A stretch of DNA of 64,000 nucleotides. Source: Aquirufa lenticrescens (GTDB taxonomy: Bacteria; Bacteroidota; Bacteroidia; Cytophagales; Spirosomataceae). Shown here in pieces: positions 8,509 through 40,742 of this stretch. Position 1 is the first letter of the stretch. Each line of letters begins with the position of its first letter. The position numbers and the translations under genes were made by a program. The notes under the pieces are model-generated. The model made no database searches. It was not told the origin of the DNA and saw only the letters and a program-made list of their open reading frames with translations. The stretch is taken from contig NZ_CP049834.1 in the NCBI RefSeq assembly GCF_019916085.1, positions 124,001-188,000 on the forward strand. Direction: 5' to 3'.

Positions 8509-9204
8509 ATGAAATTAGATATCCTCGTGATGGCCGCTCACCCAGACGACGCTGAATTAAGCTGCGCTGGAACCATACTCTCCCACATTGCTGCCGGCAA
8601 AAAAGTAGGAATCGTCGATTTCACCCGTGGTGAATTAGGTACGCGAGGAACACCTGAAATACGTCTGCAAGAATCGGCTGATGCCACAAAAATCCTTGGC
8701 ATTCACGCACGAGAAAACTTGGCCATCCGGGATGGATTTTTCAGAAACGACGAAGAAACCCAGTTAAAACTTATCGAAGTCATTCGCAAATACCAACCAG
8801 AAGTAGTACTTGCGAACGCTTTAGAAGACCGGCATCCAGACCACGGCAAGGGAGCACAATTAGCGATTGATGCCTGTTTCTTATCAGGTTTACGCCAAAT
8901 CAAAACCGGCGACCTTCCTGCCTGGAGACCTAAACAAGTCTACCACTATATTCAAGATCGTTATTTAGAGCCAGATTTCGTGATTGACATCACTGCTCAC
9001 TGGGATCAAAAAGAAGCGGCTATTCGAGCATTTAAGAGTCAATTCTTTGACCCTAATTCTGCTGAACCGTCTTCCTATATCTCTAGCCCAGACTTCTTAA
9101 ACTTCATCCAAGCGCGAGCGATGGAGATGGGCCACAAGATTGGAGTGAAGTATGGGGAAGGGTTTCAGAGTCAGAAGACGTTAGAGAAGACGATATTAGA
9201 GTAG
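8509..9204 (+). CDS. bshB1: bacillithiol biosynthesis deacetylase BshB1 (LmbE family)
   Basis: Zinc-dependent N-deacetylase that converts GlcNAc-malate to GlcN-malate, the second step of bacillithiol synthesis. It has the N-terminal metal motif 'AHPDDAELSCAGT' (residues 10-22) and the 'DRHPDHGKGAQLA' motif with the other metal and catalytic residues. The 231-aa length and the 'RGELGTRGTPEIR' stretch are typical of BshB1, as opposed to the broader LmbE family. The YtxJ protein at 57980 independently supports a bacillithiol system. The last residues and stop fall in a GA-rich repeat that continues into the intergenic element. Confidence 0.93.
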   Translation: MKLDILVMAAHPDDAELSCAGTILSHIAAGKKVGIVDFTRGELGTRGTPEIRLQESADATKILGIHARENLAIRDGFFRNDEETQLKLIEVIRKYQPEVVLANALEDRHPDHGKGAQLAIDACFLSGLRQIKTGDLPAWRPKQVYHYIQDRYLEPDFVIDITAHWDQKEAAIRAFKSQFFDPNSAEPSSYISSPDFLNFIQARAMEMGHKIGVKYGEGFQSQKTLEKTILE

Positions 9205-27557: not shown

Positions 27558-28181
27558 ATGGAATTATTCAATCAGTTTGAGCCTGAATTAAGCAAAAAAA
27601 TTCAACAAGTAGGCGTAGTTCGAAAATTCAAAACGGACGACTATTTGATGAAAACAGGGCAATCCATTCGATCAGCTGTCTTGGTAACGAAAGGAATCAT
27701 CAAAGTATTCCGCGAAGACGAGGAGGGCAACGAGGTATTTATGTACAATCTGCATCCTGGAGAAGCTTGTGCCATTTCGATGACTTGCGCAGCGAGACAA
27801 TTATCGTCTCAGATTATGGCCAAAGCCCTAGTAGACACCGAAGTCATCGCCATCCCAGCCGAATTAATGGACGAATGGGGCGCTAAATACAAATCTTGGT
27901 ACCAATTCGTGCTAGAGACCTACCGATCTCGGTTCGAAGAATTACTAGATACCTTAGATCAAATTGCGTTTAGAAATCTAGATGAGCGCTTACTTTGGTA
28001 CTTAAAACAACACCAAAAAAGCTTAAAAACGAACATTTTAAAGGCTTCCTTCACTGATATCGCCCAAGAATTAAACTCCTCCCGTGAAGTCATTTCCCGA
28101 TTGATGAAAAAGTTAGCAGAGAAAGGATTCATCAAAATCAACAAAAACCAGATTGAGATTGTGGATTTAAGGGGACTGTGA
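27558..28181 (+). CDS. Crp/Fnr family regulator, candidate activator of the sulfur island
   Basis: A 207-aa regulator with an N-terminal cNMP-binding-like beta roll (about 10-125) and a C-terminal winged helix (about 140-205). The recognition helix 'NSSREVISRLMKKL' has Arg176, Glu177 and Arg181 in the same R-E-x-x-x-R pattern as E. coli CRP (180, 181, 185), which reads GTGA half-sites. GTGAT-N4-ATCAC-type sites occur upstream of four nearby transcription units, the first overlapping this gene's own stop codon. The conserved cAMP-pocket motif is not evident. Cys71 and Cys77 in 'GEACAISMTCAAR' could sense persulfide or redox state, which is speculation. Confidence 0.85.
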   Translation: MELFNQFEPELSKKIQQVGVVRKFKTDDYLMKTGQSIRSAVLVTKGIIKVFREDEEGNEVFMYNLHPGEACAISMTCAARQLSSQIMAKALVDTEVIAIPAELMDEWGAKYKSWYQFVLETYRSRFEELLDTLDQIAFRNLDERLLWYLKQHQKSLKTNILKASFTDIAQELNSSREVISRLMKKLAEKGFIKINKNQIEIVDLRGL

Positions 28182-28221
28182 TTTTCATCACGGAAAAGCT
28201 AAACTAAATAAGGGAATTTTG
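28178..28221 (+). promoter_or_regulatory. Crp/Fnr-type site and -7 element upstream of the porin gene
   Basis: The palindrome GTGAT-TTTC-ATCAC (28178-28191) overlaps the regulator's stop codon. A -7-like GAATTTTG lies at 28214-28221, its TTTG starting 33.5 bp after the palindrome centre. Identical spacing is seen at 29499, 34840 and 37171. This fits class II activation (centre near -41.5). The binding protein is inferred. Confidence 0.72.
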
Positions 28222-28225
28222 TCCT

Positions 28226-29485
28226 ATGATGAAATTCCTTTTTACCTTATTGCTTAGCATTCCACTACTCGCTCAAAAGCCCTTTTACGCCCAATTCCGC
28301 TACTTTCACTTAGAAACGGATAACGAAAAAGTATTGCCTGATTATGGGGCTAATGCGTTAGGAGTTGAATTGGGTTACACAAAAAACGTAGGCAAGCACT
28401 TTAAAGTAGACCTTTCGGGATCCCTAAGCACCTCCTTTCTAAATTCTTCTAACCTTGCTTCGAGTCGCTATGAAATTGGTCTATTGGACCAAGCAAATAC
28501 CTCTAATTTGGATTTTTTAACACGGATTGAAAAAGCATCTCTGACTTATCAAAACAAGAAAATGAAAGTCAAACTAGGACGCCAAGTGCTAAATACCCCC
28601 TTTATTAATCCACAAGATGGCCGAATGAGGCCAAGCGCTGAGGGAGGAATTTATGCAGAATTAGGCCCTCTTAGTCTAGGCTACTTATATGAAATGGCTC
28701 CTAGAGGAACCATGGGCTGGTCACCTGTAGCAGAGTCCATTGGCTATTTTCCCGTGGGTGTTGCCATTGATGGTAAAAAATCGACCTATGCTGGACATTT
28801 AACGAGTGCTGGAATACTGATGGCAGGACTCGACCAAAAATGGAAAGGGCTAAGCTATAAATTCCATAACCTTTTCGTCGAAAATTTACTGCAAACTGCC
28901 TTGATTTCTGCAGAATTCGCCCATCCCATCCGAGGTGGAAAATGGGTAAGTGGAATTCAATTTATCAAGCAACACTCTCTCAGTGATAACCAGTACATAG
29001 AAAAAAATACCCATGCTTCTGTCATCAGTTTAAAAACTGGGCTAGAATACAAGCGCTGGAATGGAAGTTTAAACGTTACAAACATCAGTGCAGAAGGCAG
29101 ATATCTCATGCCACGCGAATGGGGAAAGGATCCTTTTTATACATTTATGCCAAGAGAAAGAAACGAGGGTTTGGGCGATGTGAAAGCCTATGTGGCTAAA
29201 TTTAGTTACGCGATTCCAAACTGGAAAATGAAAATTAATCCCAGTGTAGGCTATTTTGATCTACCATCAGTAACTAATTTTAATCTGAATAAATATGGAA
29301 TGCCTTCTTATTCGCAAGTGAATTTGGAAATCCTGATCGATGCCTCAAAAATTGCCAAAGGGCTTGATTTTCAATTTCTTCTAGCTAACAAAACGAATCA
29401 AGGGGACACGATGGAGAACTCAAAGTATATCCAAAATAAAGTGAATATGAACTCCTGGAATTTCGTCGTAAATTATCGCTTATAA
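28226..29485 (+). CDS. OprD-like outer-membrane porin
   Basis: A 419-aa outer-membrane beta-barrel with a signal peptide (residues 1-16, 'LLLSIPLLAQ') and alternating amphipathic strands throughout, ending in the C-terminal aromatic/Leu strand 'WNFVVNYRL'. The OprD-family stretch 'KVKLGRQVLNTPFINPQDGR' is present. OprD-type channels pass small anions or peptides. Its place at the head of the sulfur island, behind a predicted Crp/Fnr site, suggests entry of thiosulfate or another small sulfur anion, which is an inference from context. Confidence 0.8.
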   Translation: MMKFLFTLLLSIPLLAQKPFYAQFRYFHLETDNEKVLPDYGANALGVELGYTKNVGKHFKVDLSGSLSTSFLNSSNLASSRYEIGLLDQANTSNLDFLTRIEKASLTYQNKKMKVKLGRQVLNTPFINPQDGRMRPSAEGGIYAELGPLSLGYLYEMAPRGTMGWSPVAESIGYFPVGVAIDGKKSTYAGHLTSAGILMAGLDQKWKGLSYKFHNLFVENLLQTALISAEFAHPIRGGKWVSGIQFIKQHSLSDNQYIEKNTHASVISLKTGLEYKRWNGSLNVTNISAEGRYLMPREWGKDPFYTFMPRERNEGLGDVKAYVAKFSYAIPNWKMKINPSVGYFDLPSVTNFNLNKYGMPSYSQVNLEILIDASKIAKGLDFQFLLANKTNQGDTMENSKYIQNKVNMNSWNFVVNYRL

Positions 29486-29498
29486 ATTTTCGAACCTT

Positions 29499-29542
29499 GT
29501 GATAAAAATCACGAATAAGGTCTAGCAAAAGGTTGAAATTTG
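29499..29542 (+). promoter_or_regulatory. Crp/Fnr-type site and -7 element upstream of the TauE/CstB operon
   Basis: The perfect palindrome GTGAT-AAAA-ATCAC (29499-29512) is followed by TTTG at 29539-29542, 33.5 bp after the palindrome centre. It drives the run of closely spaced genes 29567-33707 if the operon reading is right. It is the best match of the four sites. Confidence 0.78.
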
Positions 29543-29566
29543 TATCAACAATAACAAAAACACAAC

Positions 29567-30388
29567 ATGGAAATTATTGGTTATTTCGCATCCTTGTTAA
29601 TCGGAGTCTCTTTGGGACTTATCGGGGGTGGCGGATCCATTTTAACAGTACCGGTGCTAGTTTACCTATTTGGGGTGAATCCTATTTTAGCAACCGCCTA
29701 TTCCTTATTTGTCGTAGGTGCAAGTTCTTTAGTAGGCGCTATTCCCAAATACAGACAAGGGTTAATTAACCTTAAAACCGCCGTCATTTTCGGAATACCT
29801 TCGATTGCTGCCGTTTATGCCACCCGCAAATTCATTGTTCCTTTAATACCATCAGAGGTATGTATGGTGGGCGATTTTGTCGTAACTAAATCCATCTTGA
29901 TGATGGTTCTGTTCGCAATCTTGATGGTTGCCGCTTCGATATCGATGATCAGAGGCAAATGTGAGCAATGTGAAAAAGAAAAATTAGGCACTTACGTAGA
30001 AGAAGCTCAAGTATTTAACTACCCAATGATCTTGTTAGAGGGAGCGATTGTAGGAACTTTAACAGGCTTAGTAGGCGCTGGTGGCGGATTTTTAATCATC
30101 CCAGCCTTAGTTATGCTCTCTAAATTATCTATGAAACAGGCGGTAGGTACTTCCCTATTAATCATTGCAGCGAAGTCCTTAATTGGTTTCACAGGTGATC
30201 TTGGTCATGCAATCATTGACTGGAACTTATTATTAACCGTGACAGGTTTAGCCATTGTCGGGATTTTCTTCGGCGATATTTTGAGTAAAAAAGTAGACGG
30301 TAACAAACTAAAAGTAGGTTTTGGCTGGTTCGTATTAGTGATGGGAATGTACATTCTAATCCAACAATTGGCCTTCCCTTTAAAATAA
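29567..30388 (+). CDS. TauE/SafE family sulfite/sulfur-compound exporter
   Basis: Inner-membrane transporter of 273 aa with about eight membrane helices in two similar halves. Each half opens with a glycine-rich helix ('GVSLGLIGGGGSILTVPVLV' and 'GTLTGLVGAGGGFLIIPALV'), the hallmark of the family. Between the halves is a cytoplasmic loop with 'CEQCEK', a possible metal or redox site. It is the first gene of the predicted operon with CstB-like dioxygenase, rhodanese and YeeE/YedE genes. The likely job is export of sulfite formed by persulfide oxidation. Confidence 0.9.
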   Translation: MEIIGYFASLLIGVSLGLIGGGGSILTVPVLVYLFGVNPILATAYSLFVVGASSLVGAIPKYRQGLINLKTAVIFGIPSIAAVYATRKFIVPLIPSEVCMVGDFVVTKSILMMVLFAILMVAASISMIRGKCEQCEKEKLGTYVEEAQVFNYPMILLEGAIVGTLTGLVGAGGGFLIIPALVMLSKLSMKQAVGTSLLIIAAKSLIGFTGDLGHAIIDWNLLLTVTGLAIVGIFFGDILSKKVDGNKLKVGFGWFVLVMGMYILIQQLAFPLK

Positions 30389-30406
30389 TCTTAACAGAAA
30401 AATAGT

Positions 30407-31825
30407 ATGAAAGTAGAACAAATTTACACGGGATGTTTAGCACAAGGTGCCTATTACATCGAAAGCAATGGCGAAGCTGCGATCATTGATCCACTTCGCG
30501 AGGTGCAGCCGTATATCGAGAAAGCGGAACGTAATGGCGCTAAAATAAAGTATGTTTTCGAAACACACTTCCACGCGGACTTCGTTTCAGGACATATTGA
30601 TTTGTCTGCCAAAACAGGTGCACCCATCGTTTACGGCCCAAATGCCGCTTGTGCTTTTGATTGCATTTCAGCGACAGATGGCCAAGAATTCAAATTAGGC
30701 AATGTAACCATCCGCGTGATCCACACCCCGGGTCATACGATGGAATCAACCTGTTTCCTCTTAATCGACGAAAACGGAAAAGAAACTAGCTTATTCTCCG
30801 GTGACACCCTATTTATTGGGGATGTGGGACGTCCTGATTTGGCACAAAAAGTAATCGCTGATCTAACACAAGACATTTTAGCAGGACATTTATATGATTC
30901 CCTTCGAAACAAAATCATGCCATTAGCGGACGATATCATCGTTTATCCTGCACACGGAGCTGGTTCTGCCTGCGGAAAAAACATGAGCAAGGAAACAACT
31001 GATACCTTAGGCAACCAAAAGAAAGTAAACTATGCTTTGAACCCTGCTTTAACGAAAGAGGAATTCAAAAAAGAAGTTTTAACAGGATTAGTTGCTCCTC
31101 CCGCTTATTTCCCTTTGAACGTATTGATGAATATCCAAGGATATGATTCTATTGACAAAGTATTAGAGCGTGGCCAACATGCCTTAAGTCCAGAAGGATT
31201 TGAAGCGGCAGCAAACGAAACAAGTGCACTCATCTTAGATACGCGTGATCCACAGACTTTTGCAGCTGGATTTGTACCTAATTCAATTAACATCGGTATC
31301 GACGGATCATTTGCTCCGTGGGTAGGTGCTATGATTCCAGATATCAAACAGGAAATCTTGTTAGTGACGGATGAGGGCCGCGAAGAAGAAGTCATCACTC
31401 GTCTTGCTCGTGTAGGTTATGATTTCACCATTGGATATTTGAAAGGTGGATTCGCATCTTGGAAAGCATCAGGCATGGAAATCGATCGCATTGAATCAAT
31501 TGATGCTGCTGAATTATTGAAGCGTGTCAATGCTGGTGAAGGAGAAATTCTGGACGTTCGCAAGAACAGCGAATACCTTTCAGAGCACGTGATTGATGTG
31601 GAAAATGCACCTTTGGACTTCATTAATGACAGTATGTTAAAAATCAACAAAGACAAAACCTACTTCGTACATTGTGCGAGTGGATACCGCTCTATGATTT
31701 TTAATTCAACCTTAAGAGCCCGCGGATTTGATAACTTAATCGATGTAAAAGGTGGATTCAAAGCCATTAAAGAATCGGAGAAATTCAAATTAACAGAATA
31801 CGTTTGTCCATCAACCCTATTGTAA
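30407..31825 (+). CDS. CstB-like persulfide dioxygenase-rhodanese fusion (MBL fold)
   Basis: A 472-aa fusion. Residues about 1-245 are an ETHE1-like metallo-beta-lactamase domain with the iron site 'THFHADFVSGH' and further His in 'HTPGHTMES' and 'YPAHGAGS'. Residues about 255-360 are a rhodanese-like domain whose active-site loop ('LLVTDEGREEE') lacks Cys. Residues about 365-472 are a second rhodanese with Cys in 'YFVHCASGYRSM'. This order, with a degenerate middle rhodanese, is that of Staphylococcus CstB, which converts low-molecular-weight thiol persulfide to sulfite and then thiosulfate. Bacillithiol persulfide is a likely substrate given bshB1 and ytxJ. Confidence 0.9.
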   Translation: MKVEQIYTGCLAQGAYYIESNGEAAIIDPLREVQPYIEKAERNGAKIKYVFETHFHADFVSGHIDLSAKTGAPIVYGPNAACAFDCISATDGQEFKLGNVTIRVIHTPGHTMESTCFLLIDENGKETSLFSGDTLFIGDVGRPDLAQKVIADLTQDILAGHLYDSLRNKIMPLADDIIVYPAHGAGSACGKNMSKETTDTLGNQKKVNYALNPALTKEEFKKEVLTGLVAPPAYFPLNVLMNIQGYDSIDKVLERGQHALSPEGFEAAANETSALILDTRDPQTFAAGFVPNSINIGIDGSFAPWVGAMIPDIKQEILLVTDEGREEEVITRLARVGYDFTIGYLKGGFASWKASGMEIDRIESIDAAELLKRVNAGEGEILDVRKNSEYLSEHVIDVENAPLDFINDSMLKINKDKTYFVHCASGYRSMIFNSTLRARGFDNLIDVKGGFKAIKESEKFKLTEYVCPSTLL

Positions 31826-31827
31826 TC

Positions 31828-32100
31828 ATGGAAGAATTATTAGCTAATCCAGCGACTACGGTCGTTGATGTAAGAGAAACAGGAGAATTTGCAGGTGGAC
31901 ATTTCGATGGTGCCATTAATATTCCTTTAGGAATCATTCCATTGCGCTTAGACGAATTTAAGGCTATGTCTGGACCCATCGTGGTTTATTGCAGAAGCGG
32001 CAATCGTTCAGGTATGGCTCAAATGCTTTTAAAGCAAGCAGGATTAGCAGAGGTATATAACGGTGGAGGTTTACACGATATGTTGATTTACCAAAACTAA
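31828..32100 (+). CDS. single-domain rhodanese
   Basis: A 90-aa sulfurtransferase domain with active-site loop 'VVYCRSGNRSG' (catalytic Cys present) and the 'VDVRETGEFAGGH' CH2-type motif. No signal peptide, so cytoplasmic. It starts at 31828, two bases after the CstB-like gene stop. It probably moves sulfane sulfur between the persulfide enzymes and other acceptors. A longer frame from 31804 overlaps the CstB gene and is less likely. Confidence 0.88.
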   Translation: MEELLANPATTVVDVRETGEFAGGHFDGAINIPLGIIPLRLDEFKAMSGPIVVYCRSGNRSGMAQMLLKQAGLAEVYNGGGLHDMLIYQN

Positions 32101-32101
32101 T

Positions 32102-32344
32102 ATGCTAGCTAACCTAACACAAAATTGGGGTTTCATGCGCATTATCCGCCTACTTGTAGGTGGATATGCGCTTGTAGAGGCCCATCGTGCATCTGATATT
32201 TTAATCGGAATGATGGGAGCCGTTCTGGTTGGAATGGCCTTATTGAACGCAGGCTGCGGATCCCAAGGCTGCGGTATCCCAGCATCTCGCAACAACCATA
32301 CCACAACAGAAGAAGTAGAATATGAAGAAATTCATTCAAAATAG
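32102..32344 (+). CDS. DUF2892-type small membrane protein
   Basis: An 80-aa protein with a DUF2892/YgaP-like membrane hairpin at about residues 10-50 ('IRLLVGGYALVEA', 'GMMGAVLVGMALLNAGCG'). In other bacteria this domain is fused to or beside rhodaneses (YgaP). The second helix ends in a 'CGSQGCG' pair of cysteines that may carry sulfane sulfur. One base separates it from the rhodanese stop, and it overlaps the next gene by 23 bp, so translation is probably coupled. Confidence 0.82.
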   Translation: MLANLTQNWGFMRIIRLLVGGYALVEAHRASDILIGMMGAVLVGMALLNAGCGSQGCGIPASRNNHTTTEEVEYEEIHSK

Positions 32345-32540
32345 ATTCTGGCAAATCCTAGGAGGAATATTCGGCGGAATAGCCGGATATTTCTATTGGA
32401 GAGATATAGGGTGTGCCAGTGGCACGTGTCCCATAACGAGTAAACCCCTGAATAGCATTGTATATTTTGCTGTTTTGGGGTATTTTGTGTTGGGAACGAT
32501 TAGTGGGTTTAGAGCACAAAGAATAAAGCATAAAGAATAA
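32322..32540 (+). CDS. DUF6132-type small membrane protein with CxxxxC
   Basis: A 72-aa protein with two predicted membrane segments (about 9-24 and 47-62) and the cysteine-containing segment 'DIGCASGTCPITS' between them. It is found in sulfur gene neighbourhoods of Bacteroidota. No biochemical function is known to me. The last seven residues (QRIKHKE) and the stop are written in an AAAGAATAAAGCATAA-type repeat that recurs at 37530-37560, so the native C terminus may have been replaced by repeat sequence. Confidence 0.75.
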   Translation: MKKFIQNRFWQILGGIFGGIAGYFYWRDIGCASGTCPITSKPLNSIVYFAVLGYFVLGTISGFRAQRIKHKE

Positions 32541-32641
32541 AGATGGTGAATGGTAAGTGGTGAATGGTGAATTTTTCCTCCGGACTTATTACTGTCTACT
32601 GATTACTGACTACTGATAACTAACAATTAAATACCAAATAA
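32541..32641. repeat. composite intergenic repeat inside the sulfur operon
   Basis: The order is: AAAGAATAAAG run (from about 32517, inside the previous gene), ATGGTGAATGGTAAGTGGTGAATGG (two blocks at 32542-32572, cited in part), TCCTCCGGACTTA (32574-32586), then a CTACTGATTACTGACTACTG run (about 32594-32620). This is the reverse-oriented module order of the element at 37541-37777. It separates two co-directional genes that otherwise look like one operon. Confidence 0.7.
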
Positions 32642-33205
32642 ATGATGGAAACTATTACACAACCTTGGCCCTGGTATGTCGCCGGAGCTTTAATTGGACT
32701 GATTGTCCCAGCCCTACTCTTGTTAGGCAACAAACACTTTGGCATTTCAGCTAATCTGCGTCACATGTGTGCCGCCTGTATTCCGAGCGACATTCCCTTT
32801 TTCAAATACGATTGGAAAAAAGAATCTTGGAATCTATTTTTCATCGGTGGAATTTTCATCGGCGGCTTCATCGCTGCCCATTTTTTGGGCTCAGATGCTC
32901 CCATCATCATACATCCAGATTTAGCCAAAGAACTTGCCGGTTATGGCATAACTGACCTTTCAGGAATGGTTCCTGTTCAATTATTCGAACTTCATGACGT
33001 ATTTACTTTACGTGGGTTCGTTATGATGGTAGGCGGAGGATTCCTCGTGGGATTTGGCACTCGCTATGCGGGTGGATGCACCTCTGGCCACGCTATAATG
33101 GGCCTAAGCGATCTACAATGGCCCTCTCTTGTAGCTACAATCTGCTTTATGATAGGTGGATTTGTGATGGCCAATTTAATTCTTCCTTACATTTTAGCTC
33201 TTTAA
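32642..33205 (+). CDS. YeeE/YedE family transporter, first half
   Basis: A 187-aa inner-membrane protein, one half of the YeeE/YedE (TsuA-type) sulfur-compound transporter. It has four to five membrane helices and the conserved '[13 protein letters not shown]' motif, whose Cys lies in the thiosulfate path of YeeE. The partner half follows 4 bp downstream. Separate halves are a known form of the family (PmpA/PmpB-like), so this is not a split pseudogene. Import of thiosulfate or a related anion is inferred. Confidence 0.88.
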
Positions 33206-33209
33206 TCCG

Positions 33210-33707
33210 ATGAATACGCAAGAAAAAGAAACTGATTTTGAAGTACGTTCATTAGACACCATGTGTTTGAACGAGTCTAATTTGAGCCATCCTTGGTGGT
33301 ATAATTTTAAATATTTAGCGGTTGGAATCGTGTTTGGCGTGGTATTTGTGAAAGCAGAAATCATCTCGTGGTTCCGCATTCAGGAAATGTTCCGACTACA
33401 AAGTTTCCATATGTATGGTGTCATAGGCACTGCAGTAGTCGTGGGCGCAATCTCCGTTTTCCTGATTAAAAAGTTCAAGGTAAAGACGATTCACGGAGAA
33501 GAAATTACGTTTACAGACAAAAAGTTTAATATGGGCCAAATCTACGGCGGCTTAATCTTTGGATTAGGATGGGCAGTAACAGGCGCTTGCCCAGGCCCAC
33601 TTTTCGCTCAATTAGGAACGGGAGTCTTAGCTATTTCGGTTGTTATTTTAAGCTCGATTGCCGGTACCTGGGTATATGGAAAGTTTAGAGATAAGCTTCC
33701 TCACTAA
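33210..33707 (+). CDS. YeeE/YedE family transporter, second half (DUF6691 type)
   Basis: A 165-aa membrane protein completing the pair with the preceding gene. It has about four membrane segments and the family motif 'GWAVTGACPGPLFAQLG', with Cys followed by PGP. An N-terminal cytoplasmic tail of about 28 residues carries one extra Cys. The 4-bp spacing implies co-translation. It ends before a strong terminator at 33736-33766. Confidence 0.88.
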   Translation: MNTQEKETDFEVRSLDTMCLNESNLSHPWWYNFKYLAVGIVFGVVFVKAEIISWFRIQEMFRLQSFHMYGVIGTAVVVGAISVFLIKKFKVKTIHGEEITFTDKKFNMGQIYGGLIFGLGWAVTGACPGPLFAQLGTGVLAISVVILSSIAGTWVYGKFRDKLPH

Positions 33708-33735
33708 TAGATAAGAGAGTAGAGAGTAGAGAAAT

Positions 33736-33766
33736 GGATGTCGATTAGGTTCGGCATCCTTTTTTT
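33736..33766 (+). terminator. terminator of the TauE/CstB/YeeE operon
   Basis: A 9-bp stem, GGATGTCGA (33736-33744) with TCGGCATCC (33751-33759; one G-T pair), a 6-nt loop and seven T residues. The preceding GAGAGTAGAGAGTAGAGA (33714-33731) is a fragment of the GA-rich repeat family. Confidence 0.88.
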
Positions 33767-34787
33767 ATTGATGCTTTTCAGCCCAGACCTTAATGGGCTT
33801 ATAAGGTCCGTACTTATGCTGCTCTTCAGAAAAAGGGTCTGCATACGGTCCAAAGGGATGATCAAATGGTTTCTTTTCTATTTTAGGCCAATCTTTCGAT
33901 AAATCTTTCGCCGGGCGAGGCATCGAATTCACGTACGCTGCCACATCCCACGCTTCCTCGTCTGTTAATTGCGGCTTTTCATACGTAGTCCCCTGGGGCA
34001 TATTGTATTTCACATAGCCTGCAAAATTCGAAATACGGTATAATCCTGCGCCATTATTATAGCTATGAGCACCCCACAAAGGTGGGTAAATGTAAGACTT
34101 GCCATTTTCTGCTAACAAGCCACCCCCATCTGCTTGGTGACACGACTGGCATTTTGTGGTATAAACCTCTGCACCTTTGACTGGATCACAGGCCCTTTTC
34201 ATCCCCTTTAGTTTAAATATACCAGAGCCTTTGGGCACCTTGCCTTTTTCGACATCGGAACCCAGCCATTTAATATAGGCCAAAATCGCGCGCATTTCCC
34301 GACTCGTAGAATCTAACGCCTTGCCATTTAAGCTACGCTCAAAACAATCATTTACACGTTTAATTTGATTTTCTTTAGTTCCAGACCGAGCTCTGAACTT
34401 AGGGTAAGTCGATTGAACGGCGAAGTAATTATTTCCCCAAGGTTGGGTACCCGCATTTAAGTGACAGTTTTGACAATTCATCCCGTTGGAAATGACTTTC
34501 ACTGAACCTTTGGGACCCAAATAATCTGACGTGTGGGCAATGAGTTCTTTTCCATATTCCACTAATTCTTTCTCTTCCGGCTGCAAATACATCATTCGCC
34601 AATCAGACGGAGCTGTCCACAAATGCGTAAAATTGGAATCAGGTGCGGCATAAATCGAAGTCGAATCAGTTTGAGTCGACCCCATGCTTTGATAGGTTCG
34701 AAAACCTAAAAATCCAAAAAGAAATAGGAGTAATCCGAACAAAAAGGTGGTTAATATCTGGTAACGGGGCTGAAATGGTGCGCTCAA
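33765..34787 (-). CDS. tsdA: TsdA-like di-haem cytochrome c (thiosulfate dehydrogenase)
   Basis: A periplasmic di-haem c-type cytochrome, 340 aa, anchored by an N-terminal membrane segment (about 10-30). The two haem sites are 'CQNCH' and 'CQSCH'. Between them lies 'NDCFERSLNG', matching the conserved TsdA segment whose Cys is the axial ligand of haem 1. After haem 2, 'YNMPQG' offers the Met ligand. TsdA interconverts thiosulfate and tetrathionate. It is divergent from sqr, and the Crp/Fnr-type site at 34840 lies between the two. The direction of the reaction and the electron partner are unknown. Confidence 0.85.
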   Translation of the reverse strand: MSAPFQPRYQILTTFLFGLLLFLFGFLGFRTYQSMGSTQTDSTSIYAAPDSNFTHLWTAPSDWRMMYLQPEEKELVEYGKELIAHTSDYLGPKGSVKVISNGMNCQNCHLNAGTQPWGNNYFAVQSTYPKFRARSGTKENQIKRVNDCFERSLNGKALDSTSREMRAILAYIKWLGSDVEKGKVPKGSGIFKLKGMKRACDPVKGAEVYTTKCQSCHQADGGGLLAENGKSYIYPPLWGAHSYNNGAGLYRISNFAGYVKYNMPQGTTYEKPQLTDEEAWDVAAYVNSMPRPAKDLSKDWPKIEKKPFDHPFGPYADPFSEEQHKYGPYKPIKVWAEKHQ

Positions 34788-34839
34788 AATTTTACTATTT
34801 AATGGAACCGCAATTTACGAGAAGAATAAAAAGGTACAA

Positions 34840-34883
34840 GTGACATTTATCACGACTTCTATCTATTCTATCCTCTAATATTA
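34840..34883 (+). promoter_or_regulatory. Crp/Fnr-type site between divergent tsdA and sqr
   Basis: GTGAC-ATTT-ATCAC (34840-34853), nine of ten arm positions symmetric. On the plus strand TAATATTA (34876-34883) occupies the -7 position with the same 33.5-bp spacing as the three other sites. On the minus strand a weaker TAAATTGC at 34817-34810 could serve tsdA, so one site may control both genes. Confidence 0.68.
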
Positions 34884-34908
34884 CAACATATTCTTTAAAT
34901 CGTTAACC

Positions 34909-36099
34909 ATGAAAACACAGCATCAAATAGTCATCGTAGGCGGTGGAAATGCCGGCATTTCGATCGCAGCACAGTTATTACGTAAAGATTCATCTTTGGA
35001 TATCACAATCGTTGATGGCGCAAAGAAACATTATTACCAACCCGCCTGGACCTTAGTAGGTGGTGGAGAATTCGATATTCAAGATACAGAGCGCGATGAA
35101 GCATCTGTTATTCCTTCAGGAGCCACTTGGATTCAACAAATGGTAGCAGGTTTTAAGCCTGAAGAGAATAAAATCACCTTAGCTGATGGAACAGATTTAG
35201 GTTATGACTATTTAATAGCAGCTCCTGGAATCCAATTGAATTGGGGAGAGATAAAAGGCTTAAAAGAAAATCTAGGTAAAAATGGTGTGTGCTCTAACTA
35301 TAGTTTTGCAACGGCACCCTATACTTGGGAATGTATTCAAAAGACCAAAGGGGGCAAAGCTATATTCACAAATCCACACACCCCCATCAAGTGCGGTGGT
35401 GCTCCTCAAAAGATTATGTACTTAGCGGCTGATTATTTCAAAAAACAGGGTATTGATAGCCAGGTGGAATTTTGGAGTGGAGGTACGCGCGTTTTTGGCG
35501 TAGAAAAATATGAAAATACGTTAAAAAAGGTCATTGCTCGATACGGTATAAATACGCAATTCTTTGTTAAACTCGATGAAATCGATGGCCCGAACAAAAA
35601 AGCGAAATTTGTGGGAATAGGTGAATCCAACAAAGATCAAGAATATTGGGTTGAATACGATATGATACATGTCACACCACCACAATCTGCTCCGGACTTC
35701 ATTAAGACTAGTCCTCTTGCCAATGCAGCAGGTTGGTTAGATGTGGAAAAACACACCTTACAACATATTAAATTCAATAATATATTCGGGTGTGGTGATG
35801 CAGCTAATCTTCCCGCATCACGAACTGGAGCAGCTATTCGAAAGCAGGCCCCTGTTTTAGTAAGCAATTTATTAGCTGTAATGAAGGGCAAATCGATGAC
35901 TGCCTCCTATGATGGTTATTCTTCTTGTCCCATTATCACTGGTTACGACAAATTGGTATTAGCAGAATTTGATTATAATAATAAACCGGTAGAGACATTC
36001 CCATTTGATCAATCGAAAGAGCGCTGGTCTATGTACCAAATGAAGAAATACCTACTTCCCTATTTATATTGGAATCAAATCTTACCAGGAAAGATGTAA
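34909..36099 (+). CDS. sqr: sulfide:quinone oxidoreductase
   Basis: A 396-aa flavoprotein that oxidises sulfide and passes electrons to the quinone pool, peripheral to the inner membrane. The FAD motif is 'IVIVGGGNAGISIAAQLL', the second is 'NNIFGCGDAANLPASRTGAA'. Three cysteines, at residues 128 ('GVCSNYS'), 162 ('PIKCGGAPQK') and 340 ('SSCPIITGYDK'), match the spacing of the SQR redox cysteines, which supports SQR over a generic NADH dehydrogenase. The C terminus 'YQMKKYLLPYLYWNQIL' is an amphipathic membrane anchor. A terminator follows at 36104. Confidence 0.93.
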   Translation: MKTQHQIVIVGGGNAGISIAAQLLRKDSSLDITIVDGAKKHYYQPAWTLVGGGEFDIQDTERDEASVIPSGATWIQQMVAGFKPEENKITLADGTDLGYDYLIAAPGIQLNWGEIKGLKENLGKNGVCSNYSFATAPYTWECIQKTKGGKAIFTNPHTPIKCGGAPQKIMYLAADYFKKQGIDSQVEFWSGGTRVFGVEKYENTLKKVIARYGINTQFFVKLDEIDGPNKKAKFVGIGESNKDQEYWVEYDMIHVTPPQSAPDFIKTSPLANAAGWLDVEKHTLQHIKFNNIFGCGDAANLPASRTGAAIRKQAPVLVSNLLAVMKGKSMTASYDGYSSCPIITGYDKLVLAEFDYNNKPVETFPFDQSKERWSMYQMKKYLLPYLYWNQILPGKM

Positions 36100-36103
36100 G
36101 TAA

Positions 36104-36128
36104 AAAGGCCGCTGCTAAAGCGGCCTTT
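36104..36128. terminator. bidirectional terminator between sqr and dsrE-like gene
   Basis: A 10-bp perfect stem AAAGGCCGCT (36104-36113) and AGCGGCCTTT (36119-36128) with loop GCTAA, lying between convergent genes. A-rich and T-rich flanks favour activity in both directions. The core is the same as in the terminator at 25430. Confidence 0.9.
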
Positions 36129-36132
36129 CAAC

Positions 36133-36537
36133 TTAATATTTGAGATAGGCCCAGCCGGCCTCTTGCTTAAGGACGACTTCAGCTACACCAGAGGGAACAG
36201 TGCCCGCTTGTGTTAAAATAGTAGAGCGATCGATTTTGCGTTCGCGAATCGTATTTTCACAGGCTTTGAACAAAACACCTGTAGCTGCTAATTCTGCAAT
36301 TTTGGCTTTTTGCGTCGTTTTGCCATCGATTAAAATACCGATACCAGAACCATGAGCGACTAATTCAATTTGTGTAGTAGGTCCCAGTGCGGTTTGAAGG
36401 TTAGAAATATTCTTCAACGCTCCGTGCCATACCAAGGTATCTGAAGTATTTAATTGCACAACCACTTTGTGTGTTTGTGCGTTAGCTGCGAAAGAAATTA
36501 AAGCAACAAATAAGGTTAACAGTAAGGTTTTCTTCAT
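36133..36537 (-). CDS. periplasmic DsrE-family protein
   Basis: A 134-aa protein with a signal peptide (residues 1-20, ending AANAQ) and a DsrE/DsrF-like alpha/beta domain ('HKVVVQLNTSDTLVWHGALK', 'IELVAHGSGIGILIDGK', 'GVLFKACENTIRER'). A single conserved Cys in 'FKACENT' is the likely persulfide-carrying residue. DsrE-family proteins pass sulfane sulfur between enzymes. A periplasmic member beside SQR and TsdA could accept sulfur there, which is inferred from context. Confidence 0.85.
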   Translation of the reverse strand: MKKTLLLTLFVALISFAANAQTHKVVVQLNTSDTLVWHGALKNISNLQTALGPTTQIELVAHGSGIGILIDGKTTQKAKIAELAATGVLFKACENTIRERKIDRSTILTQAGTVPSGVAEVVLKQEAGWAYLKY

Positions 36538-36572
36538 GATTATATTTTTTTACTAAACTACAAATTTTACAA

Positions 36573-37166
36573 ATGAAAGCAATGTGGAACGAGCGTTATC
36601 AAGCGGATGAATACCAATATGGAATAGATCCAAATGATTTTATGAAAGAGCAAATCTCACCCCTACCCGCGGGCCGCATTTTATTTCCGGGTGCTGGAGA
36701 GGGACGAGATGCCGTTTTTGCTGCCAAAAAAGGATGGGAAGTCCACGCCTTTGACCTAAGTGAACAAGGAAAAGCAAAGGCGGAAAAATTAGCCTCAGCC
36801 GAAAAAACACGGATTCACTTTAAGGTTGCAGATGCCACAAACGTTAAATTCCCTTTGGAATCTTTTGACGTCATTGCCTTAACCTATTTCCATCTGCCCT
36901 TAGAGACTCGATTACATTTTTACAAGCAATGTGTTTCTTGGCTTAAACCTGGCGGCTTACTTTTATTGGAAGGATTCAATCAGCGTCAACTGGGATTAAG
37001 TTCTGGAGGACCTAAAAACGCAGATTGGTTATTTTCCTCTGCGACCATAGCTACCGAATTCCCTGGCTTAAAGATTATCCTTAATGAAGAGAAGCAACGC
37101 ACATTGAACGAAGGACCACTCCACCAAGGTTTAGCAGAGGTCGTACAGTTAGTGGGTCAAAAATAA
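36573..37166 (+). CDS. class I SAM-dependent methyltransferase
   Basis: A 197-aa Rossmann-fold methyltransferase. SAM motif I is 'RILFPGAGEGRDAVFAAKKG', followed by 'VHAFDLSEQGKAKAEKLA' and 'VADATNVKFP'. The start 'MWNERYQADEYQYGIDPNDF' resembles thiopurine/thiol or tellurite-type (TehB-like) methyltransferases. Its place in the sulfur island suggests thiol or sulfide methylation as one option. The substrate cannot be decided by sequence alone. Confidence 0.85.
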   Translation: MKAMWNERYQADEYQYGIDPNDFMKEQISPLPAGRILFPGAGEGRDAVFAAKKGWEVHAFDLSEQGKAKAEKLASAEKTRIHFKVADATNVKFPLESFDVIALTYFHLPLETRLHFYKQCVSWLKPGGLLLLEGFNQRQLGLSSGGPKNADWLFSSATIATEFPGLKIILNEEKQRTLNEGPLHQGLAEVVQLVGQK

Positions 37167-37170
37167 GGAG

Positions 37171-37214
37171 GGGACAAATGTCACGTTCAAGCTATATTCA
37201 TTGACCTATATTTG
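37171..37214 (+). promoter_or_regulatory. degenerate Crp/Fnr-type site plus consensus -7 box
   Basis: GGGAC-AAAT-GTCAC (37171-37184) reads on the other strand as GTGAC-ATTT-GTCCC, close to the site at 34840. A consensus -7 box TATATTTG (37207-37214) follows; its TTTG starts 33.5 bp from the palindrome centre, exactly as at the other three sites. It would drive the rhodanese at 37235. Confidence 0.65.
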
Positions 37215-37234: not shown

Positions 37235-37540
37235 ATGTTAGAATTACTCAAGAATTTATTCGGATTTGGCCCAAAGGTTGACTTCAAGGCACTTTTAGCG
37301 GATGGTGCGACATTAGTTGATGTCCGTACTCCTGCTGAATTTAAAGATGGACACATTACAGGAGCTATCAACTTGCCATTACAAACTTTAGGTTCTAATT
37401 TGAACAAACTAAAGAAAGATCAGGTTATTATCACATGTTGCCGCTCGGGAAGCCGCAGTGGCATGGCACGCCGCCAGTTGCAAGCTGCCGGTTATACGCA
37501 GGTGTACAATGGAGGGCCGTGGACTTCACTTAAAGCATAA
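37235..37540 (+). CDS. single-domain rhodanese
   Basis: A 101-aa sulfurtransferase with catalytic loop 'ITCCRSGSRSG' (two adjacent Cys; the second is in the active position) and 'VDVRTPAEFKDGH'. The N-terminal 15 residues ('MLELLKNLFGFGPKV') are hydrophobic but too short for a clear signal peptide, so cytoplasmic location is assumed. The stop and following bases lie in the AAAGCATAAAGAATAAAGC repeat, like the ends of the genes at 32322 and 63208. Confidence 0.88.
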   Translation: MLELLKNLFGFGPKVDFKALLADGATLVDVRTPAEFKDGHITGAINLPLQTLGSNLNKLKKDQVIITCCRSGSRSGMARRQLQAAGYTQVYNGGPWTSLKA

Positions 37541-37777
37541 AGAATAAAGCACAAAGAATAAAGAAGATTAGAGATAGTAGAGTATAGAGAGGAGATGTGG
37601 TGAATGGTAAATGGTGGATGGTAAATGTTCCCACCGGACTATTGACTAGCGACTATCGACTAAATCGCGCAGCGATGACCAAACGACAAAGTCGTGACTA
37701 AATCGCACAGCGATGACTAAGTCGCGTAGCGACTGATTACTGACTACTGACTACTGATTACTAGATACTGAATACTT
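37541..37777. repeat. composite intergenic element with a four-unit hairpin array
   Basis: Modules in order: AAAGAATAAAGCACA run (37530-37566), AGAGTATAGAGAGGAG run (37568-37597), GGTGAATGGTAAATGGTGG run (37599-37627), CCACCGGACTATTGACTA (37630-37646), the hairpin array (37657-37732), then a GATTACTGACTACTG run (37733-37765). It separates the rhodanese from the thioredoxin. No open gene is supported. Confidence 0.78.
37657..37732. repeat. 19-bp triloop-hairpin array, four perfect units
   Basis: Four consecutive 19-bp units, each GACTAA (GACCAA once) plus a 5-bp stem, 3-nt loop and 5-bp stem. Stems and loops are ATCGC-gca-GCGAT (37663-37675), ACGAC-aaa-GTCGT (37682-37694), ATCGC-aca-GCGAT (37701-37713) and GTCGC-gta-GCGAC (37720-37732). 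Arms stay complementary although their sequence differs between units. Confidence 0.92.
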
Positions 37778-38077
37778 ATGAGCAAATTCGCCGACCTATT
37801 GAAATCGCCAGAACCCGTTTTAGTTGACTTTTCAGCTGAATGGTGTGGCCCCTGCAAGCAATTAAAACCTATTTTAGAGCAATTAAAGGCTAAAATTGGT
37901 AATTCTGCCAAAATCATTAAAATCGATGTCGACAAGAATCGTACCTTAGCAGATAAATTCCAAATCCGTTCAGTACCCACGATGATCCTTTTTAAGGATG
38001 GCAAGTCGGTTTGGCGTCAATCAGGGGTAATTCCTGCGAGTACTTTGGAAGGCATTATTAAACAACATTCAAAATGA
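37778..38077 (+). CDS. thioredoxin
   Basis: A 99-aa cytoplasmic thioredoxin with active site WCGPC in 'FSAEWCGPCKQLKPILEQ' and the cis-Pro loop 'IRSVPTMILFKDG'. No signal peptide. It overlaps the next gene (rhodanese-thioredoxin lipoprotein) by 4 bp. It can be reduced by TrxB (6435-7373) and regenerate rhodaneses or sulfurtransferases of the island. Confidence 0.93.
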   Translation: MSKFADLLKSPEPVLVDFSAEWCGPCKQLKPILEQLKAKIGNSAKIIKIDVDKNRTLADKFQIRSVPTMILFKDGKSVWRQSGVIPASTLEGIIKQHSK

Positions 38078-38781
38078 GAAACGTTTTATATTCATTTTTA
38101 GTCCTTGGACTTTTGTTTTCTTGTGGTCCAAAAGAAGGGCAACAAGATTTAGGTGCATCCGAATTCCAAACAGCATTAACGGCTGAATCTAAGGCTCAGA
38201 TTTTAGATGTCAGAACCATCGATGAATTCCAAAACGGTCATATCGAAGGCGCACTTAACGCAGATATTAGTTCATCCGCTTTCCAACAAATTGCATCTGG
38301 CCTAGATAAAGACAAAACTGTTTTCGTTTACTGCCTTTCTGGGGCAAGATCTGCTTCAGCTGCTGGGATGCTCAAAGAAATGGGCTTCAAATCTATCGTC
38401 AATTTAACAGGCGGTATGTTAGCTTGGCAATCAGCCAATCTTCCCGTAGCAACTGGCGAAGCGAAACCTGCAGGTTCTGCCGGACTAACAGAGGCAACTT
38501 TTGCCGAAAAAATCAAAGGCAAACCGATGGTCATCATCGATTACAATGCCACTTGGTGCGGCCCTTGCAAGCAATTAAGCCCTATCTTAAAAGAATGGGT
38601 AAAAGCGCAAAACGGTAAAGTCGAACTAATCGAAATAGATGTGGATGAAAACCAAGAGCTTGCAAAATCCAAGAAAATCGAAGCTATCCCTTACCTTGAA
38701 ATGTACAAGAACGGTGTTAAGACGTGGTCTAGCGTGGGATTGATTGGGAAAGAGGAATTAGATAAGTCGCTTCGCGACTAA
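38074..38781 (+). CDS. rhodanese-thioredoxin fusion lipoprotein
   Basis: A 235-aa exported lipoprotein with lipobox 'LLFSCG' (Cys17). Residues about 25-125 are a rhodanese ('LDVRTIDEFQNGH', catalytic Cys in 'VFVYCLSGARSAS'). Residues about 135-235 are a thioredoxin with 'ATWCGPCKQLSP'. Both active sites are intact, so the protein could form a persulfide and resolve it by an attached dithiol in the periplasm. It overlaps the cytoplasmic thioredoxin by 4 bp. The last codons and the stop (KSLRD) are the first hairpin unit of the array at 38766. Confidence 0.9.
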   Translation: MRNVLYSFLVLGLLFSCGPKEGQQDLGASEFQTALTAESKAQILDVRTIDEFQNGHIEGALNADISSSAFQQIASGLDKDKTVFVYCLSGARSASAAGMLKEMGFKSIVNLTGGMLAWQSANLPVATGEAKPAGSAGLTEATFAEKIKGKPMVIIDYNATWCGPCKQLSPILKEWVKAQNGKVELIEIDVDENQELAKSKKIEAIPYLEMYKNGVKTWSSVGLIGKEELDKSLRD

Positions 38782-40175: not shown

Positions 40176-40742
40176 TTAGGATTTCTTCGCGCGAATGCGA
40201 CTCAAACTTACCTGTGTGATTCCTAGATAGGATGCAATAAATTTCAATGGAGCCCTCTTTAATACCTCAGGCTGCTCTTTCTCTAATAAGTGATAGCGTT
40301 CCTCTGCCGCATGAAACTGCAAATTTTCTATCCGTTGTATAGTCTCCACATAGGCCTTTTCAAACAATTTCGAGAACAATCGCTCAATATCACGGCGCTC
40401 TTCATAAAGAGAAGTTAAAGCAGACGTATCAATGGACCAAAGCTCCGAATCCTCCAAAACCTGTATGCCTTTTTGACTAGGCTTACCCGCAAAAAGGCTT
40501 TCAGCCCGCGCAATCAAGTTGAATTCGCCATAAAATCCCTCTGTCACATCTGTTCCATCTTTGACGTAATAAATACGTGCCATTCCTTTTTTCAAAAAAT
40601 AAAGGGTCTTGCAGGTTTGGCCGATGGATTGTAAATCCTGGTTTTTAACAATACTAATCTCCTGGCAAATACCTGCCAATGCCTCTTGAGAAGCTACGCT
40701 CAGAGGATAAATAGACTGGAAATAAGTGATGATGGGGGACAT
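40176..40742 (-). CDS. Crp/Fnr-family transcriptional regulator
   Basis: A 188-aa protein with a cNMP-binding-like domain (about 20-120, 'LYFLKKGMARIYYVKDGTDV') and a short C-terminal winged helix ('FIASYLGITQVSLSRIRAKK'). The recognition helix differs from that of the regulator at 27558 (no R-E pair). It lies 63 bp upstream of the MFS gene on the same strand, so the two may be co-transcribed, with the MFS gene a likely target. The signal is unknown. Confidence 0.87.
   Translation of the reverse strand: MSPIITYFQSIYPLSVASQEALAGICQEISIVKNQDLQSIGQTCKTLYFLKKGMARIYYVKDGTDVTEGFYGEFNLIARAESLFAGKPSQKGIQVLEDSELWSIDTSALTSLYEERRDIERLFSKLFEKAYVETIQRIENLQFHAAEERYHLLEKEQPEVLKRAPLKFIASYLGITQVSLSRIRAKKS

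Follow-up and report, generated by a model that had tools for sequence, protein, structure and literature searches.

Which protein switches on the sulfur genes clustered in this part of the Aquirufa lenticrescens genome, and how does it recognise their promoters? The window, i.e. the whole stretch of DNA analysed, is 64,000 nucleotides (nt) long and covers bases 124001–188000 of the 2.505-Mb single-contig genome. It holds an island of genes for sulfide and thiosulfate use (Table 1) beside the gene of a Crp/Fnr-family regulator (27558–28181). The explanation proposed here, to which we assign a probability of about 0.8, is that this regulator is a class II activator of sulfide and sulfane-sulfur genes and is probably sulfur-sensing. 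The protein would bind as a dimer to GTGA(C/T)-N4-(G/A)TCAC centred at -41.5 and recruit sigma-A RNA polymerase to promoters with A at -11, TTTG (or TTGC/ATTA) at -8 to -5 and no TTG element at -33. Class II activation would extend to sqr, tsdA, the persulfide-dioxygenase-like and rhodanese enzymes, the TauE exporter, the porin-like protein and a distant HMA-domain protein, and one palindrome at tsdA/sqr would serve two divergent class II promoters. The signal would probably be reactive sulfur species acting on C71 and C77, which are located where CRP binds cyclic AMP (cAMP). Comparison between genomes supports the site, its spacing, the targets, the recognition helix and the conservation of the cysteines; binding, activation (rather than repression), the transcription starts and the signal are predictions built upon it.

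The four sites reported in the initial annotation, at 28178, 29499, 34840 and 37171, are all present, the last one with a mismatch in one half-site. The 33.5-bp rule given there also holds: TTTG starts at 28218, 29539 and 37211, and in front of sqr an ATTA starts at 34880. Below, this distance is counted as gap 26, i.e. 26 bases between the palindrome and TTTG. In the excerpted account of F. psychrophilum promoters (PMC9723704) the sigma-A box TAnnTTTG occupies -12 to -5, and a second box TAnnTTGY has the same position. With TTTG at -8 to -5 the centre of the palindrome falls at -41.5, the position of a class II activator, the start itself being predicted from the F. psychrophilum promoters. 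The class II position suggested earlier thus gains from the fixed spacing across genomes and from these start-site-mapped Bacteroidota promoters, which, as excerpted, place the box as had been assumed.

The regulator is also encoded in A. nivalisilvae, A. beregesia and A. ecclesiirivi (83–85% identity), and 33 Aquirufa stretches were compared. Upstream of tauE all 8 half-site letters and TTTG at 33.5 bp are found in 31 of 31 rows (the window, 28 Aquirufa, and L127 and L128 of other families); the 26 bases between site and box change freely while site and box stay constant. Upstream of sqr an 8/8 site occurs in 15 of 15 rows, mostly with TAATATTA at the box position. Upstream of rhd2, 24 of 27 rows have TTTG 33.5 bp away from the best-scoring site, and in five of these only 6/8 half-site letters match. 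A stricter scan counts loci with a site as follows: tauE 28, rhd2 18, porin-like 15, sqr 14, tsdA 8, dsrE 6 and cstB 2. The regulator's own promoter has no conserved site in the Aquirufa rows, so we do not claim autoregulation; at L129, a distant locus, a GTAAC site precedes the regulator. No operator of its own was found for yeeE in the Aquirufa rows, and some other genera have one. In two Aquirufa genomes (L094, L100) two tandem palindromes, GTGATATTACTCAC and GTGACTTTTATCAC, lie upstream of sqr.

To look outside the genus, named genomes were scanned with the regulator alignment. This yielded 80 loci, of which 71 are non-Aquirufa; 7 further loci bring the set to 78 (including Flavobacterium, Pedobacter, Niastella, Lacibacter, Pontibacter, Rufibacter, Dyadobacter and metagenome-assembled genomes). 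The 9 Aquirufa loci among the 80 (L133–L141) and the duplicates with 1.5-kb flanks (L213–L242) were excluded from these counts. Exact sites followed by TTTG occur 59 times at gap 26 (in 33 loci), against a mean of 1.59 and a maximum of 4 over 41 other gaps, and at gap 26 none of four control dyads occurs. If one mismatch is tolerated, 63 of the 78 loci have a site. The gene downstream of the 128 non-Aquirufa sites is cstB-like in 46 cases, tauE in 33, rhd2 in 11, yeeE in 4, rhodanese-thioredoxin in 4 and another query gene in 6, and 24 sites precede none of the query genes. An unsupervised count of perfect palindromes with 5-bp arms followed by A..TTTG in 118 loci finds 74 at gap 26 and 6–18 at each of eight other gaps, the commonest arms being GTGAC (36), GTGAT (13) and GTAAC (5). 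A motif-only search that did not use the regulator gives 46 places in 198 genomes of the phylum (control 5); island homologues are present in 11 of the 29 loci looked at, and at least four loci (L357–L360) look like one coding-sequence match. From these comparisons the regulon and its geometry appear close to certain. The initial observation holds, with far more support than a single window could provide.

It could be supposed that the sites are similar by chance or by inheritance and have no function, and the numbers from the A. lenticrescens genome are indeed small. GTGAN6TCAC with TTTG 12–42 bases on occurs in 23 places (9 for the reversed-pattern control), and gap 26 is found in 3 of the 23: two in the island, one upstream of another gene. 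Relaxing the -7 box to A at -11 and TT at -8/-7 gives 5 places (control 1): four belong to the porin-like gene, to tauE, to tsdA (minus strand) and to a gene at 654.8 kb, and the fifth falls within an ftsQ-like coding sequence. In the window itself the fixed-geometry pattern (up to 2 mismatches) has 13 matches, compared with 5.46 ± 2.16 in shuffled sequence, and none of 100 shuffles reaches 13. The excess of 59 over 1.59 in other genera and the unsupervised palindrome count were judged already to refute functionless similarity, and site and box are kept although the spacer between them varies freely; we regard this explanation as practically negligible. A fourth exact palindrome in the window (GTGATTGACATCAC, 8980–8993) lacks a suitably spaced -7 box on both strands and is probably due to chance.

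The regulon had been expected to be local and devoted to sulfur. Its sulfur character is upheld by the cross-genome tests, its purely local nature is not. The 654.8-kb site, about 500 kb from the island, precedes an open reading frame of 39 aa (654658–654774, minus strand). The orthologue in other Aquirufa is mostly 87–88 aa long and has an HMA domain (Pfam 39.3 bits, cut-off 24.8), hence this genome has a shortened HMA-protein gene (in frame, from about 87 to 39 codons, with promoter and predicted operator retained). The gene occurs in 20 of 38 genus genomes; its upstream region contains an 8/8 site in 17 of 20 rows, and in 18 of 20 loci an 8/8 site is accompanied, at the correct spacing, by a -7-like box (of the TACATTT type in eight, mainly TAnnTTGC in the rest). 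This distant gene appears to fit the regulon.

The composition of 79 promoters (L256 excluded) bears on the direction of control. TTG within -38 to -29 is found in 4 of 79 (5–13 in other windows), so the usual upstream element is apparently replaced by the protein; T at -12 is present in only 36%. Both values are as expected of activator-dependent promoters. It is conceivable that the protein is instead a repressor sitting on the promoter and released by sulfide, as are the best-known sulfide regulators CstR and SqrR/BigR in the excerpted text of PMC8148161. A repressor needs no fixed register, and a centre that stays exactly at -41.5 from promoter to promoter is the signature of an activator; repression seems improbable, and class II activation very probable.

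The same position rule places the start of the porin-like gene on the A of its ATG (28226), so its mRNA is predicted to be leaderless. Predicted leaders over the promoter set range from 0 to 80 nt and five of them have zero length, so this case has parallels; 5.5% of F. psychrophilum mRNAs are given as leaderless in the excerpted text of PMC9723704. In L169, L171, L172 and L158 the rule likewise puts the start on the A of the tauE ATG. The tsdA/sqr site stands as a site, with the amendment that tsdA is a predicted target in its own right from the same palindrome as sqr. Of 12 Aquirufa rows, 8 have a tsdA-side box (TAATTTTG, TAAATTTG or TAAATTGC, i.e. TAnnTTTG or TAnnTTGC) at the mirrored position and two (L106, L107) have it one base off; L119, one of the remaining two, has no tsdA match. 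Six loci lack sqr, and there a single two-way site of this kind is shared by dsrE and rhd2.

The only Pfam domains of the regulator above cut-off are cNMP_binding and HTH_Crp_2, which places it in the Crp/Fnr superfamily. Its predicted model (predicted local distance difference test, pLDDT, 88.8; predicted template modelling score 0.79) is matched by Foldseek to 3dv8, NtcA and CRP. The recognition helix reads SREVISRL and contains R176, E177 and R181, as had been noted; R176 and R181, together with C71 and Y63, are invariant in 138 homologues, so the proposed CRP-type reading is upheld by comparison. The R-E-x3-R helix and the adjoining GTGA half-sites correspond to CRP-type recognition. Position 177 is Glu in 114 homologues and Val in 24. 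Sites of the GTGA/GTGA, mixed and GTAA/GTAA type number 82, 61 and 2 in the Glu loci and 0, 2 and 8 in the Val loci (Fisher 4.8e-10 per site, uncorrected for kinship). For CRP, the rule attributed to Ebright links E181V to GTAA. The E177V/GTAA pairing seems to agree with this specificity code without being an independent proof of it; its use as independent statistics was rejected after the tree (134 of 139 rows; a separate alignment has 53 regulators, 52 chosen from the 138 and the window's). Nothing useful on CRP Glu181 was found in the open-licence PubMed Central (PMC) literature as excerpted. In 17 of the 24 Val loci no site of the kind used in this comparison occurs, and on a looser look two of these 17, L262 and L266, have GTAA-like sites in register. 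A subgroup of six (L270, L271, L274, L277, L278, L279) combines V177 with the segment GESCIMSF, in which C71 is kept and C77 is replaced by Gly; sulfur genes are near in 4 of the 6, and the expected site was not found in this subgroup.

Could another Crp/Fnr protein of the genome read the sites? Four proteins have a cNMP domain and two of them HTH_Crp_2 above cut-off, the second being a fusion of a receiver with cNMP and Crp-type helix-turn-helix (HTH) domains. Its helix, GTATESVIRTL, lacks the CRP-type arginine, R-E-x3-R being found only in the 27558–28181 protein; neither of the other two cNMP proteins has a Crp HTH above cut-off. The second Crp-like protein of the window (40176–40742) was rejected as the reader, having the Pfam cNMP domain only. 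The sites also track the loci of the CX5C regulator in other genera and co-vary with its residue 177. A different reader is therefore very improbable, and the 27558–28181 regulator would almost certainly be the one that acts at these sites. The fusion itself (L328:1027-2082, ~2198.1–2199.2 kb) lies beside a histidine kinase and a TauE-like/FixH-like pair, and is perhaps a phosphorylation-linked FNR-type regulator.

The regulator contains just two cysteines, C71 and C77 (CX5C), both in the effector-pocket segment. The chances of a thiol or persulfide signal look slightly better than even, and the identity of the signal is a good guess. The same regulator, sites and class II mechanism could serve another signal, such as a metal (Cu(I)), general thiol oxidation or oxygen acting through C71 and C77, or else a bound ligand; the sulfur genes would then be the output only. 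CX5C could bind a metal, the regulon includes an HMA (metal-chaperone-type) gene, and a peroxiredoxin-like and two ferredoxin/thioredoxin-reductase-like open reading frames (names from sequence) follow sites in other genomes. Set against this, a homologue of one of the query genes from the sulfur island follows 104 of the 128 non-Aquirufa sites (no search was made for metal-transport genes), and many loci whose homologue lacks C77 retain sulfur neighbours. The excerpted text of PMC8148161 describes the S. aureus cst operon as copper-sensing and reports, for another bacterium, induction of copper-chaperone genes by sulfide, which makes copper and sulfide signals hard to separate. We consider such a different signal unlikely, though by no means far-fetched.

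Several findings weigh against a sulfur-sensing class II activator. The palindrome without the spacing (up to one mismatch) has 229 genome places (control 106) and is useless alone. The one-mismatch scan at the fixed gap shows no excess in the genome (12 places, control 13), so weak sites are not callable without conservation, and the degenerate 37171 site rests on conservation and not on this genome alone. A smaller second peak exists in Aquirufa at gap 25 (22, compared with 54 at gap 26); it is made almost wholly of conserved AATTTG strings, mostly on the reverse side of tauE sites, and is read as shared ancestry of one stretch. In 15 of the 78 loci there is no site at this geometry, five of them (L149, L151, L152, L156, L159) having a 7/8 or 8/8 site and A..TT in register but no TTTG. 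Two Glu-type loci have GTAA/GTAA sites, and on the tree position 177 needs 3 changes with one independent pair, i.e. about one evolutionary event, so E177V/GTAA taken by itself carries no statistical weight. Model confidence is lowest in the pocket segment (mean pLDDT 69, residues 71–80). Finally, C77 is found in 118 of 138 homologues and absent in 20, so a C71–C77 disulfide cannot be the universal mechanism.

Table 1. Island features in the window (positions are those of the window).
Feature	Position	Strand	Evidence or remark
Crp/Fnr-family regulator, 207 aa	27558..28181	+	Pfam cNMP_binding 39.2 bits (cut-off 27.5), HTH_Crp_2 42.5 (cut-off 27)
Predicted operator GTGATTTTCATCAC upstream of porin-like gene, centre at predicted -41.5	28178..28191	+	exact GTGA-N6-TCAC
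Predicted -7 box GAATTTTG of porin-like gene; predicted start 28226	28214..28221	+	position rule as excerpted from PMC9723704
Porin-like outer-membrane protein	28226..29485	+	label of the initial annotation; library match below cut-off only
Predicted operator GTGATAAAAATCAC upstream of tauE-cstB-rhodanese run	29499..29512	+	exact GTGA-N6-TCAC
Predicted -7 box GAAATTTG of tauE; predicted start 29547, leader 20 nt	29535..29542	+	
TauE/SafE-family exporter	29567..30388	+	Pfam TauE 142.6 bits (cut-off 32.6)
Metallo-beta-lactamase fold + rhodanese protein, which we take to be CstB / persulfide-dioxygenase-like	30407..31825	+	Pfam Lactamase_B 57.9, Rhodanese 92.4 bits
Rhodanese-domain protein	31828..32100	+	Pfam Rhodanese 54.7 bits
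Two YeeE/YedE-like halves, thiosulfate-transport family	32642-33205, 33210-33707	+	Pfam Sulf_transp 64.9, 38.9 bits
TsdA-like cytochrome c	33765..34787	-	Pfam SoxA-TsdA_cyt-c 33.9 bits (cut-off 27), Cytochrom_C 54.9 bits
tsdA-side predicted -7 box TAAATTGC, 33.5 bp from common site; predicted tsdA start 34805	34810..34817	-	
Predicted operator GTGACATTTATCAC common to divergent tsdA/sqr promoters	34840..34853	.	exact GTGA-N6-TCAC
sqr-side predicted box TAATATTA; predicted start 34888, leader 21 nt	34876..34883	+	
Sulfide:quinone oxidoreductase (SQR)-like flavoprotein	34909..36099	+	Pfam Pyr_redox_2 46.7; NCBIfam type III SQR 234 bits, below 525-bit cut-off
Degenerate predicted operator GGGACAAATGTCAC upstream of rhodanese gene	37171..37184	+	one half-site mismatch
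Predicted -7 box TATATTTG; predicted start 37219, leader 16 nt	37207..37214	+	
Small rhodanese-domain protein (rhd2)	37235..37540	+	rhodanese-family matches below cut-offs; followed by thioredoxin-like open reading frames 37778-38781

Short imperfect repeats (TGGTGAATGGTAAG, ACTGATTACTGACTACTGACT, GACTAAATCGCGCAGCGATGACCAA) recur between the island genes, at 32542–32620, 33706–33740 and 37531–37775.

The class II sulfur regulon proposed here for this cysteine-bearing subfamily of Crp/Fnr proteins seems previously undescribed within the open-licence PMC literature, in whose excerpts no Crp/Fnr sulfur regulator of Bacteroidota was found. The protein is likely a master regulator of sulfide and persulfide handling for a phylum whose reviews, as excerpted, name none. 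A simple rule (GTGA-N6-TCAC, 26 bases, A..TTTG) predicts its targets genome-wide, and Bacteroidota sigma-A, for all the peculiarity of its -7 box, appears to conform to the class II register known from textbooks. The candidate sensor is a two-cysteine motif in a small protein, so the question of the signal is directly testable. Tentatively, a cyclic-nucleotide pocket may have been turned into a sensor of reactive sulfur (C71, usually with C77) in a master activator of Bacteroidota that keeps an invariant -41.5 position, uses palindromes each firing two divergent class II promoters, and in one branch has its regulon retuned by an E177V switch from GTGA to GTAA.

Among known systems, FNR senses through a 4Fe-4S cluster bound by four cysteines, whereas the present regulator has two cysteines only. 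CstR (CsoR family), SqrR/BigR (ArsR) and FisR (sigma-54-dependent) regulate similar genes (sqr, persulfide dioxygenase, rhodanese, TauE), but none of them belongs to the Crp/Fnr superfamily, to which the two domains of the regulator assign it. HcpR and PgRsp are Crp/Fnr proteins of the same phylum with stress-gene targets; in the excerpted literature they are described as heme-binding and linked to nitrosative and redox stress conditions, and no sulfur regulon is described for them there. The best match both by profile (E 1.1e-38) and by fold is 3dv8 (EUBREC_1222 of Eubacterium rectale), which belongs to another phylum and carries the CX5C motif as DMCLLSASC; we know of no described function or regulon for it. 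E. coli CRP as a class II activator shares the fold (Foldseek template modelling score ~0.8), R-E-x3-R for GTGA and, as predicted for the regulator, the centre at -41.5. It differs in that the regulator scores 37.3 bits with the NCBIfam CRP equivalog PRK11753.1 (cut-off 266), has CX5C where the cAMP-contacting Glu and Arg columns of CRP (in the numbering that we assume) are not kept, and would act at promoters with the Bacteroidota-type -7 box.

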